39,315 nt of DNA from Bacteroidota bacterium (GTDB lineage Bacteria; Bacteroidota; Bacteroidia; SXHM01): positions 1 to 39,315 of the forward strand of contig CANKAM010000034.1 in NCBI GenBank assembly GCA_947479755.1, given 5' to 3'. The position numbers and the translations under genes were made by a program. Every line of letters starts with the position of its first letter. Positions within the stretch are counted from its first letter, which is position 1. This document shows positions 1 through 7,592 of the stretch, piece after piece. The notes under the pieces are model-generated. The model was not told where the DNA came from. It ran no database searches and saw only the letters and a list, made by a program, of their open reading frames with translations.

Positions 1-1
1 A

Positions 2-727
2 CTAATACTAACTATGGAGGAAAAACTAAAATCTCAGTTTGAGTTATCCAGCATGAAATCAAGTTTTATTAAGTTAATAACTCATGAGTTAAGAAATCCA
101 CAGGCAATGGTTTTAAGTAACTTAAATTTATTTTACAATAGGTGGGAGACTCATATGAAAGACATTCCTGAATTTTCAACTGGATTTAAGTTTATACAAG
201 GTGAAATACAAGGCATGAGTAAGATGATAAATACATTGATTAATTATGAAAATATTTTGTCTAGGGGGGCACTTTTAAAAACAGAAATTTATTGTAAAAA
301 CTTTGTAAGTAATTTTCTTAATTACCACTACAGCATATTTATTCATAGTAACAAGTTTGCCATTGATGAATCTATTGGTGAGGAAAAAATACTTGTGGAT
401 TTAGATTTGTTTGAAACCGCTCTGAGAAACCTTATTGAAAACTCGCTTAAATATACAATTTCAAACAGTCTCATTGAAATCTCAATCGGAATAAATAAAA
501 ACAGTTTATTTGTTATTAAAATTAAAAACAAAACAAGAAACGATATTAATTTGAATCAAGATATGCTAGGTGTTTCTTTTTACAGAGGGAATTATAACCA
601 GAGTGAAGGTTATGGTTTAGGCTTAAATATTGCAAAGCAAATTATACAAAACCATTATGGTGAATTAAGTTTTTCTTCTGAAAAGTCAATTTTTATAAGT
701 GAAATTAAGATGCCAATCATTATATAA
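2..727 (+). CDS. Sensor histidine kinase, C-terminal part (5' partial)
   Basis: The reading frame is open to the left edge, so the methionine at 14 is probably internal and an upstream sensor domain is missing. The visible part is the transmitter core. An H-box reads THELRNP, with the phospho-acceptor His at residue 24 counted from that Met. The N-box is NLIENSLKY and the G2 box is GYGLGLNIAKQI. The G1 box (D-x-G-x-G) is degenerate, with IKNKT in its place. No membrane segment is visible in this part. The stop lies 11 nt before a response regulator, so the two very likely form one two-component system. The gene is very AT-rich. Kinase identity is clear; the stimulus is unknown. Confidence 0.9.
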   Translation, partial: LILTMEEKLKSQFELSSMKSSFIKLITHELRNPQAMVLSNLNLFYNRWETHMKDIPEFSTGFKFIQGEIQGMSKMINTLINYENILSRGALLKTEIYCKNFVSNFLNYHYSIFIHSNKFAIDESIGEEKILVDLDLFETALRNLIENSLKYTISNSLIEISIGINKNSLFVIKIKNKTRNDINLNQDMLGVSFYRGNYNQSEGYGLGLNIAKQIIQNHYGELSFSSEKSIFISEIKMPIII

Positions 728-738
728 GTTAATATGCT

Positions 739-1365
739 ATGCCAAAAAAAATAATTGTATTTGAAGATGATTTTCGATTGTTATCTGCAATGACTACAAT
801 ATTAAATTCATCAAAATTTCAAGTTATTTCCTCATATGAATCGTATGAAGATTACAGCAAAAATAAAATTCTCGACCTTTCGTATGATATTGCTCTTATT
901 GATGTTAATTTAAATGGTATATCAGGTATAGATATTATTAAAAAGTTAAAATCCAGAAATCCTTATCTGAAAGTTATTATGCTTTCAAACGAAACTAATT
1001 TAAATACTGTTTATGATGCATTTATAAATGCGGCAGATGGCTACCTGTTGAAAATTGATGCAATTACCAATTTAGGGGTATTTCTTGATCAAGTTGATAC
1101 ATGTGAGTATGTAGTCAGTAATTCTATAGTCAGTGTTCTGGTAAAAATCATTAAGAATATTCCATCTAAGCAATTTAATACACTGCAATCTGTTAAACTT
1201 ACCAAATCACAGCATCGGGTATTAACTGAACTTATGAAAGGTCTTACTTATACTGAAATTGGCCATAAATTAAATATTTCAAACAGCACTGTTTCTTTGC
1301 ATATTCAAAAAATTTATCGCGCTTATAATGTAAAGAGCCGTAATGAACTTTACCAACGTTTATAA
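739..1365 (+). CDS. NarL/FixJ-type response regulator
   Basis: This 208-residue protein has a receiver domain at about 3-120 and a LuxR-type helix-turn-helix at about 148-208. Receiver landmarks are the acidic pair in FEDD (9-11), the phospho-acceptor Asp55 in IALIDVN, Ser83 in VIMLSN and Lys105 in YLLK. The output domain contains the typical LTKSQHRVLTELMKGLTYTE and the recognition-helix stretch ISNSTVSLHIQKIY. It lies 11 nt after the kinase gene and is presumably its partner. Its targets are unknown. The two SiaC-like genes downstream, with a dyad in front of them, are candidates by position only. Confidence 0.93.
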   Translation: MPKKIIVFEDDFRLLSAMTTILNSSKFQVISSYESYEDYSKNKILDLSYDIALIDVNLNGISGIDIIKKLKSRNPYLKVIMLSNETNLNTVYDAFINAADGYLLKIDAITNLGVFLDQVDTCEYVVSNSIVSVLVKIIKNIPSKQFNTLQSVKLTKSQHRVLTELMKGLTYTEIGHKLNISNSTVSLHIQKIYRAYNVKSRNELYQRL

Positions 1366-1536
1366 GTTATATTTTTTTTAAGTTAACATTATATTGAATT
1401 TGTTTAAAGCTGCCTCTTTGAGATTATTTGTTGAGAAACAGATAGCAGTTTATTCATAAAAATATAAAGAATTCATTTGGCGCGATTTGCTTGCCGGCAA
1501 ATTTAATCGTAAGCATTAATTGATTTAATTTTAAAT

Positions 1537-1568
1537 ATATTATATAGTGTATTTGTACTATATAATAT
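1537..1568. promoter_or_regulatory. 12-bp perfect inverted repeat upstream of the SiaC-like pair
   Basis: The 12-nt arm at 1537-1548 is the exact reverse complement of 1557-1568, with an 8-nt loop between. It sits 81 nt upstream of the start at 1650, in a 284-nt gap that otherwise shows only AT-rich sequence and a short TTGCCGGCAA palindrome at 1491-1500. There is no T-run after it, so it is not a standard terminator. It could be an operator for a dimeric regulator, such as the neighbouring NarL-type protein, or an RNA hairpin in the leader. Confidence 0.45.
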
Positions 1569-1649
1569 TTAGGGAAATAGTTATAGTTAACTATTGATAT
1601 TACATTATTACAGTCCGTTCTTTGTGACGTATACATAAATAGGTGCAAA

Positions 1650-2096
1650 ATGAACATATACTCTGGAGTAATTAATAACTATGAATATAATATTCGCAAA
1701 TTATGTTGCAAATCCAATATTTCGTTTTATTTAAAAAATAATGAAATTAATATCTTTATAACAGGTGATTTCGTTACAACACCTACTATAAACTCATTGT
1801 ATGATAAAGTTATTAATATTGATAAAATAATTACAAAGAAAGATAAACAAAAAGTAACATTAGATTTTTCGTTGTTATATACATGCGGAAAATCAGAGAT
1901 GTTATTTGCTCATTTATTTAAAATTATTAAAACTCATTTAGTTAACCATAAAGAGTATGAGATAATATGGCGTTACCAGAATGATAGTACTGATATACTT
2001 GAACTAGGACAAGTATTACAAGAAATAACTGAACTTGATTTTTGTTTTCTTGATGATAAAAATCGTTTAGAAATATTTCGAAATTATTTACAATAA
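1650..2096 (+). CDS. SiaC-like (DUF1987) protein, divergent copy
   Basis: This 148-residue cytoplasmic protein has no signal peptide or membrane segment. Its C-half resembles DUF1987: LDFSLLYTCGKSEML, then IIWRYQNDSTDILELGQVL, where the family has a beta strand, a phospho-threonine loop and a W-x-Y/D-x-D-M-L-x-x-G helix. Thr78 falls where SiaC of Pseudomonas carries its regulatory phospho-threonine. SiaC is a phosphorylatable switch that controls a partner enzyme in the SiaABCD c-di-GMP pathway. The match here is weaker than in the next gene: the Asn before the Thr is Tyr, and only part of the acidic motif is kept. AGGTG at 1641-1645 may serve as a ribosome site. The partner kinase (SiaB) and phosphatase (SiaA) are not in the window. 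Confidence 0.6.
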   Translation: MNIYSGVINNYEYNIRKLCCKSNISFYLKNNEINIFITGDFVTTPTINSLYDKVINIDKIITKKDKQKVTLDFSLLYTCGKSEMLFAHLFKIIKTHLVNHKEYEIIWRYQNDSTDILELGQVLQEITELDFCFLDDKNRLEIFRNYLQ

Positions 2097-2114
2097 CCTT
2101 ACCTGAACTAACTT

Positions 2115-2122
2115 CCCCCCCC
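2115..2122 (+). repeat. C8 homopolymer just upstream of a start codon
   Basis: Eight consecutive C residues lie in otherwise very AT-rich DNA, six bases before the ATG at 2129. Tracts of this length are prone to slippage. Here the tract would alter the leader or spacing, not the reading frame. Confidence 0.6.
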
Positions 2123-2128
2123 AATACT

Positions 2129-2581
2129 ATGTTAAATAAATTTATTTTACTCAATGAAAAAAATTTAAGGGCAAGTTTTGATATTTCAACCAATAAATTT
2201 TATATTGACGGTCCATCTATAGCGCTTTACCCGGAGAAAAACTATTTAACTTTAACCGGAATAATTCTTGATATTATTAATGTAATACCCTTAAAAGAAA
2301 AAGTAATAATTAGTTTTAACTTTTCATTATTAAATACTCGTAGTATTCTTGAATTGATAGCATTATTAAAAAATATTAAAATTTCAGACAAATGCAAACA
2401 CGATATTAATGTAAACTGGTTATATCAAAGTGATGATGAAGATATGTTGGACATAGGTCATGATTTAGCCGAACTCTTCTCAGAAATCAATTTTAATTTT
2501 AATGAAAGCTCAGAATGTAGTTATATTAAAACTAATAGTTTAACCACCTTCACTCTGAAAAGTAGCGAATCGAGTAATTAA
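2129..2581 (+). CDS. SiaC-like (DUF1987) regulatory phosphoprotein
   Basis: This 150-residue protein matches DUF1987/SiaC clearly. It has an N-terminal strand pair ending in FYIDGPS, the central ISFNFSLLNTRSILELIALL with Thr70 at the position of the SiaC phospho-threonine, and NVNWLYQSDDEDMLDIGHDL near the C-end, a family hallmark. The last 25 residues are Ser/Thr-rich and probably disordered. Known family role: unphosphorylated SiaC binds and activates an enzyme, while a kinase and a PP2C phosphatase set its state. The gene lies 32 nt after its divergent paralogue, so the pair probably arose by duplication and is co-transcribed. What it regulates here is unknown. Confidence 0.8.
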   Translation: MLNKFILLNEKNLRASFDISTNKFYIDGPSIALYPEKNYLTLTGIILDIINVIPLKEKVIISFNFSLLNTRSILELIALLKNIKISDKCKHDINVNWLYQSDDEDMLDIGHDLAELFSEINFNFNESSECSYIKTNSLTTFTLKSSESSN

Positions 2582-2650
2582 GCACAAAATAACTTTTACT
2601 CTACAGGTTCCAATATCATTTGCATTTGTTTGACGACATCAGATCGGCAA

Positions 2651-2896
2651 TTACAATAAATCAGACTTAACCCCGCTCGGCTGAATGTTCAACGCGTTCG
2701 GCTGTGCGGCATTTGCAACTAAGCGAAGCACTCTCATGAGTTCCTTATAAAAACAAATCAGTTCACGAATAATGCCGCTCGGAACACAAGACAATTTATA
2801 ATTGTCTTCACTGAAAATTACATCCCCTTCAAACATCTCCGTAAATGTAATCCGTTTTATTAATTCTCTGTATTTATCATTTGTCCCATTAGTCAT
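2651..2896 (-). CDS. Small hypothetical protein
   Basis: An 81-codon minus-strand frame starts at the ATG at 2896, which has AAAAGGA a few bases upstream, a reasonable ribosome site. The frame stays open to 2980, but the stretch before 2896 is low-complexity. The product is soluble and mixed charged/hydrophobic, with a helical stretch IIRELICFYKELMRVLRLVA. No family is recognised. It is divergent from the AraC-type gene at 2980. It could be spurious. Confidence 0.42.
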   Translation of the reverse strand: MTNGTNDKYRELIKRITFTEMFEGDVIFSEDNYKLSCVPSGIIRELICFYKELMRVLRLVANAAQPNALNIQPSGVKSDLL

Positions 2897-2979
2897 GCTT
2901 GTCCTTTTAAATATTTTCCACCCACACAATATTCCCCCCATCCCTCCGTTATACAATTTGCAAACCATCATCATTTTCA

Positions 2980-3795
2980 ATGCCTCCCCGCCAGAAAACA
3001 GCCTATCGGGTTTCTCCCTCCGTATCTGTTACTGCAATGGATGTAGGCAACATTGTATTAAATGAAATCAGCCACCGCGATGATAACACCACCTATTTCT
3101 ATCCTAATAAACACCCCGTTATCTACTTTATCTTAAAAGGCCGCTGTTCAATAACAGCAAATAAAACCACCAATCACTGCCTCAGCGGCACAGCCATCAT
3201 CATCAATGACAACAAAACCCTCCCCGTTGAATTTTCCCATGCCGGAACAAAAATATTCTCCTTCCCGTTAACGCCCGCCCTCTGTCAGCAGCTAAACATA
3301 AGCCTGCCAGATTTCACTACCCATGCCTTTTCCAACTACAGTTTTGTAAACAACCTCCTAACCCGCCTCTTTCATGAGTTCAGTAAAAATGATGACCACG
3401 CATCCGAATGTATCCTAAGTATTCTTTCATTAATCCTAATAGAACTAAAGCGCGAAGCTGCAACATCCTATGTACGCAAACCCCCATGGGTAAACAAACT
3501 CGCAACACTGCTCAATAATAATCTAAGCAAACCCATTGATCTCCGGTGGGTAGCCTCTCAGCTAAAACGTAACTACAACCATCTCTCCCGTGCAATACCA
3601 ATCTACTTCCACTGCACCTTTCATGAGTTGCTACTCTCATTAAGACTAAAAAAAGCAGCCACCCTTCTCCTCGAAACCAACCAACCCATCTACGCTATAG
3701 CTGCCGATTGCGGCTTTGCATCCACCAGTCATTTCGACAACCATTTTAGGCATGCCTATGGCCTTACCCCCCTCCAATTCCGTAGCCAATCCTAA
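2980..3795 (+). CDS. AraC-family transcriptional regulator
   Basis: This 271-residue protein has a cupin-like N-terminal domain (about 35-110, with HPVIYFILKGRCSI) and a C-terminal double helix-turn-helix of the AraC type (about 165-268). The C-part carries DLRWVASQLKRNYNHLSR as the first HTH and PIYAIAADCGFASTSHFDNH followed by FRHAYGLTPLQFR as the second, which is the family signature. The likely role is effector-responsive DNA binding; ligand and target are unknown. Third codon positions are rich in C, unlike the AT-rich genes to its left, so this may mark a change in DNA origin. A later start at Met20 is possible. Confidence 0.9.
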   Translation: MPPRQKTAYRVSPSVSVTAMDVGNIVLNEISHRDDNTTYFYPNKHPVIYFILKGRCSITANKTTNHCLSGTAIIINDNKTLPVEFSHAGTKIFSFPLTPALCQQLNISLPDFTTHAFSNYSFVNNLLTRLFHEFSKNDDHASECILSILSLILIELKREAATSYVRKPPWVNKLATLLNNNLSKPIDLRWVASQLKRNYNHLSRAIPIYFHCTFHELLLSLRLKKAATLLLETNQPIYAIAADCGFASTSHFDNHFRHAYGLTPLQFRSQS

Positions 3796-3870: not shown

Positions 3871-4008
3871 TCCCAAAATGCTAAATCCATGCAACAACGC
3901 TAAACAAACCTCCGCCAACCCCATTTCTTGCCCCACCTTTGTCCCGAATACAATCGCACACCGTTCTTTCACATCATAACAAGCTAAAAACCATCCCGCT
4001 ATAAAAAC

Positions 4009-4368
4009 GGCAGGTCTCGCGGAACACTTGGCAGGTCTCGCCAACGTGTCGGCAGGTCTCGCGGAAGGGTTGGCAGGTCTCGCGAACAACCCGGCAGGTC
4101 TCGCCAAAGACTTGGCAGTTATCGCGAACAACACAGCAGGTCTCGCGGAAGACTTGGCAGCTATCGCAAACAACAAGGCAGGTCTCGCGGAAGACACGGC
4201 AGGTAGTGTAAGCTATCTCGGCAGGTCTCGCGAAAGACACGGCAGGTAAGGTAAGCTATCTCGGCAGGTCTCGCGGAAGACACGGCAGGTAAGATAAGCT
4301 ATCTCGGCAGGTCTCGCCAAAGACAAGAACACAGTCGCGGAAGACAAGGAAAGCATCGCGGTAGACAG
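4009..4368 (+). repeat. Degenerate 21-nt tandem array 1 (17 units)
   Basis: Seventeen head-to-tail units begin with GGCAGGTCTCGC or a close variant, followed by nine variable bases such as GGAAGACTT. Nine units at 4009-4197 are exactly 21 nt. From 4177 to 4305 a 43-nt higher-order unit (21 + 22 nt) is repeated three times at 4177, 4220 and 4263. The second half of each ends in TAAGCTATCTC. Two decayed units follow the last full one. The 22-nt units break every reading frame, so the array as a whole is not coding, although parts read as heptad peptides. It ends 115 nt before the gene at 4484. A related array precedes the gene at 11522-12472. Confidence 0.9.
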
Positions 4369-4483: not shown

Positions 4484-5695
4484 ATGAAAAACCTAATCTC
4501 CAACCGCGTAAACATGGTACGCACAACCTTAAACCACATCGCTCTCGACCCTACACCCGTAATGAGCATTCCCGCATTCGCAGGTGTCCGCACAACAGCA
4601 ATCAACAAGCTCACCCTTATCGACCAGCTCACCCAAATTGCAAACCGCAGCGTAAGAGACGTAACCCTCGATACCAACCTTATCCGCATAACCATGTCCA
4701 ACATTGCCCTTAAAGTAGGTGATGCCGTTAGCGCTTATGCAGCTTCCGTAAATAACAACGTCCTCAGGGGCAAAGTAACATTCACCTTGCCTAAACTCAA
4801 TAAATTCAAAAAAGACGAAGTAGATGATATTTGCCAAACCATCCATGACGAGGCAAATACAAACATAGCTGTTGCAGGCCCCTTTGGTTACGATGCAACC
4901 GATGTTACCGACCTTCAGACAGCCATAGACCTCTATCGCACCTCCATGCAAAGCCCGCGCGAATTCACCATCACTAAAAAACAGGCAAACGCAAACATCA
5001 CACTCCTTGCTCGCGAAATCATCGACAACATCTTTAAAAAACAAATGGACAAAATGGTCAATACAAAAAAAGCCACCTTCCCCGATTTCGTAAAAGCCTA
5101 CTACTTCGCCCGCGAAATAATAAACATTGGCTCCACCACCGCCAAAGTCCGTGGAACACTCCGTAACCCCGAAGGCACCTACCTTGTAGGAGCTACCTTC
5201 TACATCACCAAAACAGGCGAAACCCAAAAGGTAGGGGAATCCCTTGCGGATTCCCTCGGAAAATACGGCATATCCCACCTCCTTGCCGATGATTACGATT
5301 TATATTGGTCAGCCCTCGGATATGAAACCCTCACCGAATCCAATCTACACATCCCAGCAGGCAAAGAATTCACCCGCAACAAAGTCCTTCAACACACTGT
5401 TATAACAGGAACAATCACCAGCGGTCAGCAACTCAACATCCTTGGCCCCTCTAACCCTGCATGGCGTGTAGGCGCAACCGTAAAAATTAAAAATACAACC
5501 ACCACACCAATGGTAGGAGGCATTGCATTCTTCCCCGCCAACAACCCCGGTGATGGCTATCCCGGTTCAGGAGGTTCAATCCTCCTACCTGGTCAGGAAG
5601 AAACACACATCATCACAGCAGCAGACTTCAAACCCTACCTTAATATTCAAAACCAAAGCACCAACCTTGGCACATACGAAATAACCTTCCTGTAG
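4484..5695 (+). CDS. Helical protein with carboxypeptidase-regulatory-like beta domain
   Basis: This 403-residue protein has no signal peptide or membrane segment. Residues 1-215 look mainly helical. From about 220 a carboxypeptidase-regulatory-like Ig fold begins (KVRGTLRNPEGTYLVGATFY, later GKYGISHLLADDYDLYWSALG). A further beta-rich segment follows at about 305-403 with Gly/Pro-rich loops. The domain is usually found in exported or surface proteins, so the lack of a signal is odd. The layout matches the protein at 11522-12472: helical N-half, beta C-part, 21-nt array upstream. Codons are C-rich at third positions. The function is not recognised. Confidence 0.8.
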   Translation: MKNLISNRVNMVRTTLNHIALDPTPVMSIPAFAGVRTTAINKLTLIDQLTQIANRSVRDVTLDTNLIRITMSNIALKVGDAVSAYAASVNNNVLRGKVTFTLPKLNKFKKDEVDDICQTIHDEANTNIAVAGPFGYDATDVTDLQTAIDLYRTSMQSPREFTITKKQANANITLLAREIIDNIFKKQMDKMVNTKKATFPDFVKAYYFAREIINIGSTTAKVRGTLRNPEGTYLVGATFYITKTGETQKVGESLADSLGKYGISHLLADDYDLYWSALGYETLTESNLHIPAGKEFTRNKVLQHTVITGTITSGQQLNILGPSNPAWRVGATVKIKNTTTTPMVGGIAFFPANNPGDGYPGSGGSILLPGQEETHIITAADFKPYLNIQNQSTNLGTYEITFL

Positions 5696-5855: not shown

Positions 5856-7592
5856 ATGCAGGATATAATTCTCCAGGCCGCAACAAACATCCGCGATAGT
5901 TTCGATCGCTTTCATGTCGAGTTCAAAATCATGACTCACCATGCCTCACTCCGTTTTGAGCACCGCGATTGGCAAGCCATCCAAAGCGACAGCATGGAGC
6001 GCCTCGATCACTACAAAAAATACGTAACCGCATCAGTCGACCGCACTCATGAGCTGTTAAGCGATAAAATCAACGATCATGCAACATGGGCCGAACTCAA
6101 AAAAGAATTCTCAAAACTGGTTGCCAACCGCTATGACGGACCAATTGTCGAAACCTTCTTCAATTCCGTGCTGCGAAAGATATTTATTTCAGAAGGTATT
6201 AACGAGGAAATTGAGTTCATAGATTTCGACCGCGATGTAATCTTTGTTAATCCCGACCAGCCAATTTATAATTCCTCTTTCCTGGGTAGCGATACCATTG
6301 AAATTGTTGTGCGCAGAATTATTGCATCCTATAACTTCAACTTTAAGTTTGCCGACTTTGAAGCAGACGTTGCTTACATCACTGACCGCATTACAAAGGC
6401 TGTACGCAAGGCTTTTGTAAAACTCTCCTTCGACCGTGTGGATATGTTGCGTTCCGTTTTTTATCGTAACAAGGGCGCCTATTTAGTTGGAAGAATTATA
6501 AAAGGCAACAAGCTCATTCCTGCTGTAATTCCTATGGTTCACAGCGAAAGAGGAGTAGAGGTCGATAACGTATTACTCACCCAGGATGAAATCAGTATCG
6601 TGTTTAGTTTTACTCGTTCCTACTTCTTTGTCGAAGCAGAAAATCCGGCAGAACTAATTCATTTTCTGCGCCCGCTGATGCCGCAAAAAGCAGTCTCCGA
6701 ATTATACAGTTCTATTGGCTACAACCGCCACGCTAAAACGGTTTTATACAAAGAAATATACCAGCATTTGGAGAAAACTGACGAGAAATTTATTGTTGCT
6801 CCCGGCATAAAAGGCATGGTCATGTCTGTCTTTACATTACCCACCTACAACATGGTATTCAAGGTGATTAAAGATGTTTTTAAGCCACCGAAGACCGTAA
6901 CACGCAAACAAGTAGTGGATACCTACCGCTTTGTATTTATGCACGATAGGGTAGGGCGCATGGCCGATCCGCAGGAATTTGAATATTTAAAGTTTGATAA
7001 AACCCGTTTCGAAGACGAAGTACTCAACGAGTTGCTCGAACTTTGTTCTGAAGCAGTTTATGTGGAAGGCAATCTGGTAATTATTCGTCAGCTTTTTACC
7101 GAAAGGAGAATGATTCCTTTGAATATTTACCTTGCTGAAGTGGACAAGGAAAAAGCAAAGAAAGCTGCCATAGATTATGGCCATGCTGTTAAGGAGTTGG
7201 CAGCAGCCAATATTTTCCCCGGTGATTTACTGATGAAAAATTTTGGTGTTACCCGCCATGGTCGTGTAGTTTTTTACGACTACGATGAGTTGTGTTTTCT
7301 TACCGAATGTAATTTTCGAAACAAACCGGAACCACGCAGTCATGAAGAGGAATACTCATCAGAAACATGGTTCACCGTTGGGGAGCGTGATGTTTTTCCT
7401 GAAGAGTTTCGCGCTTTTATGTTGCCAACCGGTGATTTGCGCGATGCCTTTTTAAAAGTACATAAAGACTTATTCAATGTTGAGTTCTGGAAAAACATGC
7501 AACAACTGCACACCACTGGACAGGTTATGGATTTCTTCCCTTATCAGCGCAGAAAAGCACGTAAGGAAGAAGGTGTTTTGAAGTTAGAGTAA
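5856..7592 (+). CDS. aceK: Isocitrate dehydrogenase kinase/phosphatase
   Basis: The 578-residue product has the same length as E. coli AceK and is collinear with it. It carries the ATP loop APGIKGMV (315-322), Lys336 in VFKVIKD, Asp371 in GRMADPQEF, Asp457 in NIFPGDLLMKNFG, and Asp475/Asp477 in VVFYDYDE. These are the positions of the known E. coli active-site residues. The enzyme phosphorylates and dephosphorylates isocitrate dehydrogenase, diverting carbon into the glyoxylate bypass. In enterobacteria it sits in aceBAK; here no aceA, aceB or icd is nearby. AceK is best known from Proteobacteria, so transfer into this lineage is possible. It is followed 30 nt later by an LptF/G gene with its own promoter box. 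Confidence 0.96.
   Translation: MQDIILQAATNIRDSFDRFHVEFKIMTHHASLRFEHRDWQAIQSDSMERLDHYKKYVTASVDRTHELLSDKINDHATWAELKKEFSKLVANRYDGPIVETFFNSVLRKIFISEGINEEIEFIDFDRDVIFVNPDQPIYNSSFLGSDTIEIVVRRIIASYNFNFKFADFEADVAYITDRITKAVRKAFVKLSFDRVDMLRSVFYRNKGAYLVGRIIKGNKLIPAVIPMVHSERGVEVDNVLLTQDEISIVFSFTRSYFFVEAENPAELIHFLRPLMPQKAVSELYSSIGYNRHAKTVLYKEIYQHLEKTDEKFIVAPGIKGMVMSVFTLPTYNMVFKVIKDVFKPPKTVTRKQVVDTYRFVFMHDRVGRMADPQEFEYLKFDKTRFEDEVLNELLELCSEAVYVEGNLVIIRQLFTERRMIPLNIYLAEVDKEKAKKAAIDYGHAVKELAAANIFPGDLLMKNFGVTRHGRVVFYDYDELCFLTECNFRNKPEPRSHEEEYSSETWFTVGERDVFPEEFRAFMLPTGDLRDAFLKVHKDLFNVEFWKNMQQLHTTGQVMDFFPYQRRKARKEEGVLKLE

Follow-up and report, generated by a model that had tools for sequence, protein, structure and literature searches.

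SiaC and related partner switches

In Pseudomonas, SiaC is phosphorylated at Thr68 by SiaB and dephosphorylated by SiaA, and unphosphorylated SiaC activates the cyclase SiaD through its parallel stalk helices (PMC8457831, PMC7647112). SiaC grips the stalk helices with Thr68 and helices 2 and 3, the residues Asn67, Thr68 and Ser69 touching the stalk, and the 2021 structure paper goes only as far as to propose that a DUF1987 protein modulates the proteins adjacent to it (PMC8457831). SiaC-family genes were found in 172 of 295 sampled Bacteroidia genomes, with up to 14 in each by that search. To our knowledge, the cyclase SiaD of Pseudomonas is the only known target of a SiaC-family protein.

Coupling of a response regulator to partner switching is found in HptB-HsbR-HsbA of P. 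aeruginosa and CrsR-CrsA of Shewanella, and HsbR is itself the switch enzyme. HsbA differs from the proteins described here in being an anti-sigma factor antagonist with a STAS domain, and the outputs of that system are sigma and anti-sigma factors (PMC6482189). RsfS-RsfR of Mycobacterium smegmatis shows a histidine kinase and a REC-PP2C protein acting on a phospho-switch protein, comparable to the H-NOX or FIST, kinase and REC-SpoIIE genes of two relatives of our locus (G014 and G094, see below), but the switch protein is the STAS antagonist RsfB, the output is SigF and no second kinase and NarL-type regulator with SiaC-like proteins are described (PMC10950880). The literature searched, which consists mostly of journals outside subscription, yielded no study linking a SiaC-family protein to a two-component system and none on DUF6272. 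A reading of this DNA made without database searches (the sequence-only reading) had considered a link between His-Asp signalling and Thr-based switching to be new for the family. This stands in so far as no such link is reported for SiaC, but coupling of the two is known for STAS proteins from HsbR-HsbA (PMC6482189) and RsfSR (PMC10950880), so that the locus does not represent a new kind of switch.

The locus shares with SiaA/B/C/D of P. aeruginosa the SiaC domain and fold with a Thr at the N-terminal end of helix 2 and, in relatives, SiaB and a SpoIIE-type phosphatase at the locus. It differs in that a kinase and a regulator stand in the place of SiaD, in the presence of two divergent SiaC proteins, here called P1 and P2, in the lack of SiaA and SiaB in the cassette of the window and in the lack of Asn67 and Ser69 equivalents in P1. 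The pairing of a kinase and its regulator with SiaC-type proteins, found in a mobile four-gene cassette of a freshwater Bacteroidia genome, recurs in a distant family and suggests that two usually separate signalling chemistries are wired together.

Gene content of the locus

The window, that is, the whole stretch of 39,315 nucleotides analysed, starts at base 1 of its contig (G000:C34:1, G000 being the window's own genome). The kinase, the NarL-type regulator and the two DUF1987 proteins recognised by the sequence-only reading are all open reading frames where it had placed them, and both DUF1987 proteins exceed the cut-off of the Pfam family SiaC (PF09345, DUF1987; 24.5 bits) (Table 1). The regulator does not lie directly before the pair, as had been thought, since the intergenic region separates it from P1.

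Table 1. Features of the kinase-SiaC locus at the left end of the window.
Feature	Position	Strand	Evidence
Histidine kinase, 3' part, PAS-PAS-HisKA-HATPase	2..727	+	HATPase_c 39.0 bits (cut-off 26.4), HisKA 22.4 bits (cut-off 26.9)
NarL/LuxR-type response regulator, 208 aa	739..1365	+	Pfam Response_reg 57.0 bits, GerE 46.2 bits; alignment
Intergenic region, 284 bp, AT-rich (25% GC)	1366..1649	.	Dyad and palindrome
P1, divergent SiaC-like protein, 148 aa	1650..2096	+	Pfam SiaC 45.0 bits; predicted fold Z 14.1; tree
P2, second SiaC-family protein, 150 aa	2129..2581	+	Pfam SiaC 58.7 bits; predicted fold Z 14.5
AraC-type regulator	2980..3795	+	Pfam HTH_18 69.4 bits; 99%-identical tract ends with this gene

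The contig edge truncates the kinase, of which residues 251-491 of 491 remain by match to the intact protein (241 residues), and the HisKA domain of this truncated form scores under the Pfam cut-off. In G004, G001 and G006 the kinase is intact, a protein of 491 aa that contains two PAS stretches as well as HisKA and HATPase; in G004, HisKA reaches 28.8 bits (cut-off 26.9) and HATPase_c 37.9 bits. As in a two-component kinase, the phospho-acceptor His278 (intact numbering; codon 83-85 of the window), the N-box and GxGLGL are retained, and the regulator, 11 bp downstream, keeps Asp55, Ser83 and Lys105 of the receiver together with a GerE output domain.

No SiaB, SpoIIE or GG[DE][EQ]F motif was found on the contig, which agrees with the absence of SiaB, SiaA and a diguanylate cyclase noted earlier, and a motif scan found no GG[DE][EQ]F, the signature sought for SiaD, in ORFs of at least 120 aa in 21 loci. 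The left side had been proposed as a place to look for SiaB-like or PP2C/SpoIIE genes, but none lies left of the intact kinase in G001, G004 and G006, which show there a gene encoding a 515-aa membrane protein. Adjacent SiaB and SiaA, as in the SiaABCD module, are found neither on the window contig nor upstream in these three genomes. The window genome contains in total 15 SiaC, 8 DUF6272 (SiaB) and 14 SpoIIE matches.

Family, fold and switch threonine of P1 and P2

AlphaFold models, for which 10 sequences from the window and its relatives were aligned in each case, show a modest pLDDT of 66.8 for P1 and 76.0 for P2. For both proteins the best solved structures are those of Pseudomonas SiaC (Foldseek E at best 1.4e-3 for P1 and 1.0e-5 for P2). 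In VIA-align, SiaC entries occupy ranks 1-4 for P1, with Z 13.2-14.1 (best rmsd 2.7, 123 aligned), and the next-ranked structures are STAS proteins with Z 9.6; P2 shows Z 14.0-14.5 against SiaC (best rmsd 3.0, 124 aligned) and 8.4 against the next STAS protein. The earlier assignment of P1 to a SiaC-like pair therefore agrees with its predicted fold, for which SiaC is the nearest solved structure.

The threonine phosphorylated in SiaC was said to be kept in both proteins, and so it is: Thr78 of P1 (codon 1881-1883) and Thr70 of P2 (codon 2336-2338) fall on the conserved Thr column of a 41-row SiaC alignment and align with SiaC Thr68, the Pseudomonas chain 'YLNTSS' lying on the same profile column. 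The equivalents of Asn67 and Ser69 are Tyr and Cys in P1, and P2 keeps the preceding Asn and has Arg for the following Ser. In the alignments, inspected by eye, six of the seven SiaC-like proteins, P1 included, show Ser or Thr at the switch position, and none of them shows the neighbouring Asn, versus 34 of 35 ordinary SiaC rows. A target other than the cyclase stalk is plausible for the SiaC-like proteins, since they lack the Asn whose counterpart in SiaC touches the stalk. One copy in G094 (L083:368-787) has neither Ser nor Thr at the switch position; it may be a decoy, and some P1-type proteins, with the Asn67 and Ser69 equivalents missing and Ser/Thr lost in this copy, may not switch.

A tree of the 41 SiaC rows places P1 with the kinase-linked SiaC-like proteins of another family (98/98) and P2 with the ordinary SiaCs, and the placement of P1 holds (99/98) in a tree without P2 and with two more SiaC-like proteins. 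The P1, P2 and SiaC-like rows are all long-branched, and the rows of P1 and P2 are flagged by the tree analysis, yet P2, the longest branch, stays among the ordinary SiaCs, which speaks against pure long-branch attraction. A profile of the SiaC-like proteins ranks P1 a few bits above the ordinary SiaCs (48.1 vs 43.2 and 41.5 vs 37.8), a weak difference. P1 and P2 look, from their sequences, like two old and different paralogs. The suggestion that the pair had diverged, with one member acting as a decoy, fits poorly with their separate, long-branched positions in the tree and with a Thr kept in both; P1 and P2 are probably not a duplicate plus decoy, and a recent tandem duplication was discarded as the main reading because P1 belongs with the kinase-linked SiaC-like proteins and P2 with the ordinary SiaCs.

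An accessory insertion

Positions 1-3793 of the window are 98.9% identical to G004, and identity falls to 83.6% in the flank that starts at 3877; between G004 and G001 the high-identity tract covers approximately L039:1267-6797. The site is empty in G002 and G003, where the 515-aa gene immediately precedes a gene encoding a 578-aa protein (window 5856-7592). The same site holds the cassette in G001 and G004 and a different insert, with a 723-aa gene, in G005, and the contigs of G000 and G006 end inside the block. The part from the kinase to P2 shows a GC content of 24-33% versus about 32-49% around it. The identity tract, the empty sites and the low GC content show that these genes are accessory DNA, inserted at this site and transferred among the species of the genus. 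The AraC-type regulator is in the same inserted block, outside the conserved module.

The site flanked by the 515-aa and 578-aa genes (L039 2012-8915 compared with L210, L212 and L211) is a possible insertion hot spot. The inserted block also contains tandem repeats of 21-, 42- and 63-bp units next to the 99%-identical tract on its right side (window 4003-4367) and a 403-aa ORF with no assigned function (window 4484-5695). The window and G001 (L093) differ in positions 2-1365 and 1650-2581 by 16 amino-acid-changing and two silent codons, which are too few for a statement on selection. The labels Chitinophaga pinensis and Chryseobacterium gleum carried by the metagenome-assembled genomes of L092, L093 and L095 look doubtful, as these group with uncultured Bacteroidia.

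Conserved neighbourhood outside the genus

The copies within the genus are nearly identical and count as one event, so that their conservation was set aside as evidence. The regulator search in 295 genomes of the class gave matches at E <=1e-20 in 18 genomes; the module is present in four genus members and in G156, which belongs to another family (f9) and shows a 42% match, G094 and G014. Among the 11 other genomes with regulator matches, three were examined: no SiaC was seen by eye in G027 and G231, and in G124 about 4.2 kb separate a SiaB-SiaC pair from the regulator, which is unrelated.

Orthologs of the kinase, with 36-37% identity, are present in three genomes of another family, G156, G094 and G263. 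The kinase matches in eight genomes fall into two classes, E <=1e-100 and E >=1.5e-19, G156 and G094 showing 1e-100 to 1e-103 and the next-best kinase 1.5e-19; judged by these scores, the kinase orthology is clean. G263 was found by the kinase profile alone, in nine genomes of the same order as these relatives, and then showed a SiaC-like gene upstream. In these three independent loci a divergent SiaC-like gene lies directly upstream of the kinase on the same strand, at 69 bp in G156, 58 bp in G094 and 82 bp in G263. A conserved neighbourhood in relatives was a point on which the sequence-only reading had made its proposal depend, and the linkage of kinase and SiaC is conserved outside the genus.

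G156 shows on one strand a SiaC-like gene, the kinase (491 aa, with 37% identity across 485 residues), the regulator and a gene encoding DUF3050, and on the opposite strand SiaB and a canonical SiaC, with a SpoIIE phosphatase nearby. G094 contains, in this order, two SiaC-like genes, the kinase, a FIST gene, a second kinase, a REC gene, a REC-SpoIIE fusion, the NarL-type regulator, DUF3050 and a third SiaC-like gene. In the f9 loci, DUF3050 is located next to the regulator, where the block of the window has the AraC-type gene. In G014 the regulator is cut off by the end of one contig, and a second contig opens with SiaC-like, SiaB and SiaC genes facing REC-SpoIIE, REC, kinase and H-NOX genes; the two contig ends presumably adjoin. 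Kinase searches found no ortholog of the PAS-PAS kinase in G014, where the locus is on two contig ends. The G014 arrangement (G014:C50, L197 608-5775), with an H-NOX gene, a kinase with a HNOBA match, REC and REC-SpoIIE facing SiaC-SiaB-SiaC-like, could provide a nitric-oxide input to the switch; G094 shows a FIST protein where G014 has H-NOX.

Possible gating of the kinase by SiaC-like proteins

That His-Asp signalling and SiaC partner switching are functionally connected is well suggested by the SiaC-like fold of P1 together with a kinase/SiaC neighbourhood kept outside the genus. Our preferred reading, to which we give a probability of about 0.45, is a mobile cassette that couples phospho-switch proteins of the SiaC family to a dedicated kinase/regulator pair, where they may gate the kinase. 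In the mechanism considered most likely, the phosphorylation of Thr78 and Thr70 would depend on a kinase of the SiaB type and a phosphatase of the SpoIIE type, and the dephosphorylated SiaC-like protein would bind the kinase, probably at the helical linker between PAS and DHp, in the way in which SiaC grips the parallel stalk helices of SiaD, and would so set the output of the kinase to the NarL-type regulator. The linker before the His domain is presumably helical. The kinase, which would take the place of the Pseudomonas diguanylate cyclase, is favoured as the target because the constant neighbour of the SiaC-like genes is a kinase with a linker and no GGDEF motif was found in the 21 loci. 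The switch enzymes lie beside the locus in relatives and, in the genome of the window, would act from elsewhere.

The full set of switch parts at the G156 locus, SiaB, canonical SiaC and SpoIIE, counts in favour of gating. Against it count the lack of SiaB and SpoIIE in the window cassette, the non-adjacent kinase and NarL-type regulator of G094, the different gene order of the window, in which the SiaC genes follow the regulator behind the intergenic region, and the G1-box Asp of the HATPase, missing in all kinase orthologs aligned, which have Asn426 instead. A conserved kinase beside divergent SiaC-like proteins is a concrete candidate target and, if gating is correct, Ser/Thr partner switching and a two-component system would be directly linked outside the STAS family. 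A wider version is more tentative still: SiaC-family proteins would be partner-switch subunits of kinases, their Thr state toggling the His-Asp relay, with H-NOX or FIST and REC-SpoIIE upstream and a kinase-plus-SiaC core that spreads among species as a cassette, and relatives would then have a chain from His-Asp to Thr and back to His-Asp.

The main rival to kinase gating is transcriptional control, in which the regulator drives a promoter in the intergenic region and so determines the levels of P1 and P2, whose targets are elsewhere in the cell. This region contains a perfect 12-nt dyad with an 8-nt loop (1537-1568) and a palindrome (1576-1601), which may be a site for the regulator; a dyad with arms of 12 and a loop of up to 20 was reached by six of 1000 dinucleotide shuffles. 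An AT-rich gap of this length before the pair, with a dyad so rarely matched, speaks for transcriptional control, and the gene order of the window fits it equally well. However, in G156, G094 and G263 the SiaC-like gene is close upstream of the kinase on the same strand and not behind the regulator, the promoter scan for the P1/P2 pair is no richer than shuffled sequence (14 sites versus 11.1 +/- 3.6), and the gap is nearly identical in three genus copies, hence its conservation is unreadable. The scan of the pair found no terminator. The promoter box of Bacteroidota is TAnnTTTG, and this box was not found in the gap. Transcriptional control as the sole link is, on balance, rather unlikely.

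The opposite direction, in which the two-component system sets the phosphorylation state of SiaC, as a REC-SpoIIE protein could do, and the adjacent NarL-type regulator is an output, appears less likely again. The G014 and G094 loci, which carry an H-NOX or FIST sensor and a second kinase as well as a lone REC and a REC-SpoIIE fusion, favour this direction, as does the precedent with STAS proteins, RsfSR of Mycobacterium (PMC10950880), but neither the window cassette nor G156 shows a REC-SpoIIE gene, the SpoIIE protein of G156 has no REC match, and the conserved neighbour of the SiaC-like genes is the PAS-PAS kinase and not the kinase of REC-SpoIIE.

Background frequency of SiaC neighbours

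Gating of the kinase was also considered against the general distribution of SiaC genes. Of 61 loci (27 best P2 matches, 8 top SiaC loci and the complete set of 26 from four f9 genomes), three have a receiver or kinase gene within 1.5 kb of SiaC, all of them this module, and 35 have SiaB within that distance; the module loci L192, L194 and L195 are not counted at this distance. In a contig scan based on the regulator alignment, with 80 loci kept, a local SiaC profile found SiaC in four, each of which ranks in the top five by regulator match, and the fifth contig stops 136 bp into P1; many of the remaining 75 loci belong to Gammaproteobacteria, which makes this control only partly fair. It is improbable that two of many SiaC genes travel by chance beside an unrelated two-component system, as might be suggested by the 15 SiaC genes of the window genome and by G016, in which two canonical SiaC genes in tandem converge with an unrelated kinase-regulator pair at a distance of about 660 bp, since the association recurs by orthologous kinases in two families and different surroundings and none of the 12 assessed of the 13 other SiaC loci in the window genome (C10 was left out) has a kinase or receiver within 3 kb.

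The G016 pair and its kinase-NarL neighbours are located at L053 5496-9459 (G016:C44). In the window genome, only three of the assessed SiaC loci adjoin SiaB (C80, C37 and C58), and most SiaC genes are orphans with unrelated neighbours.
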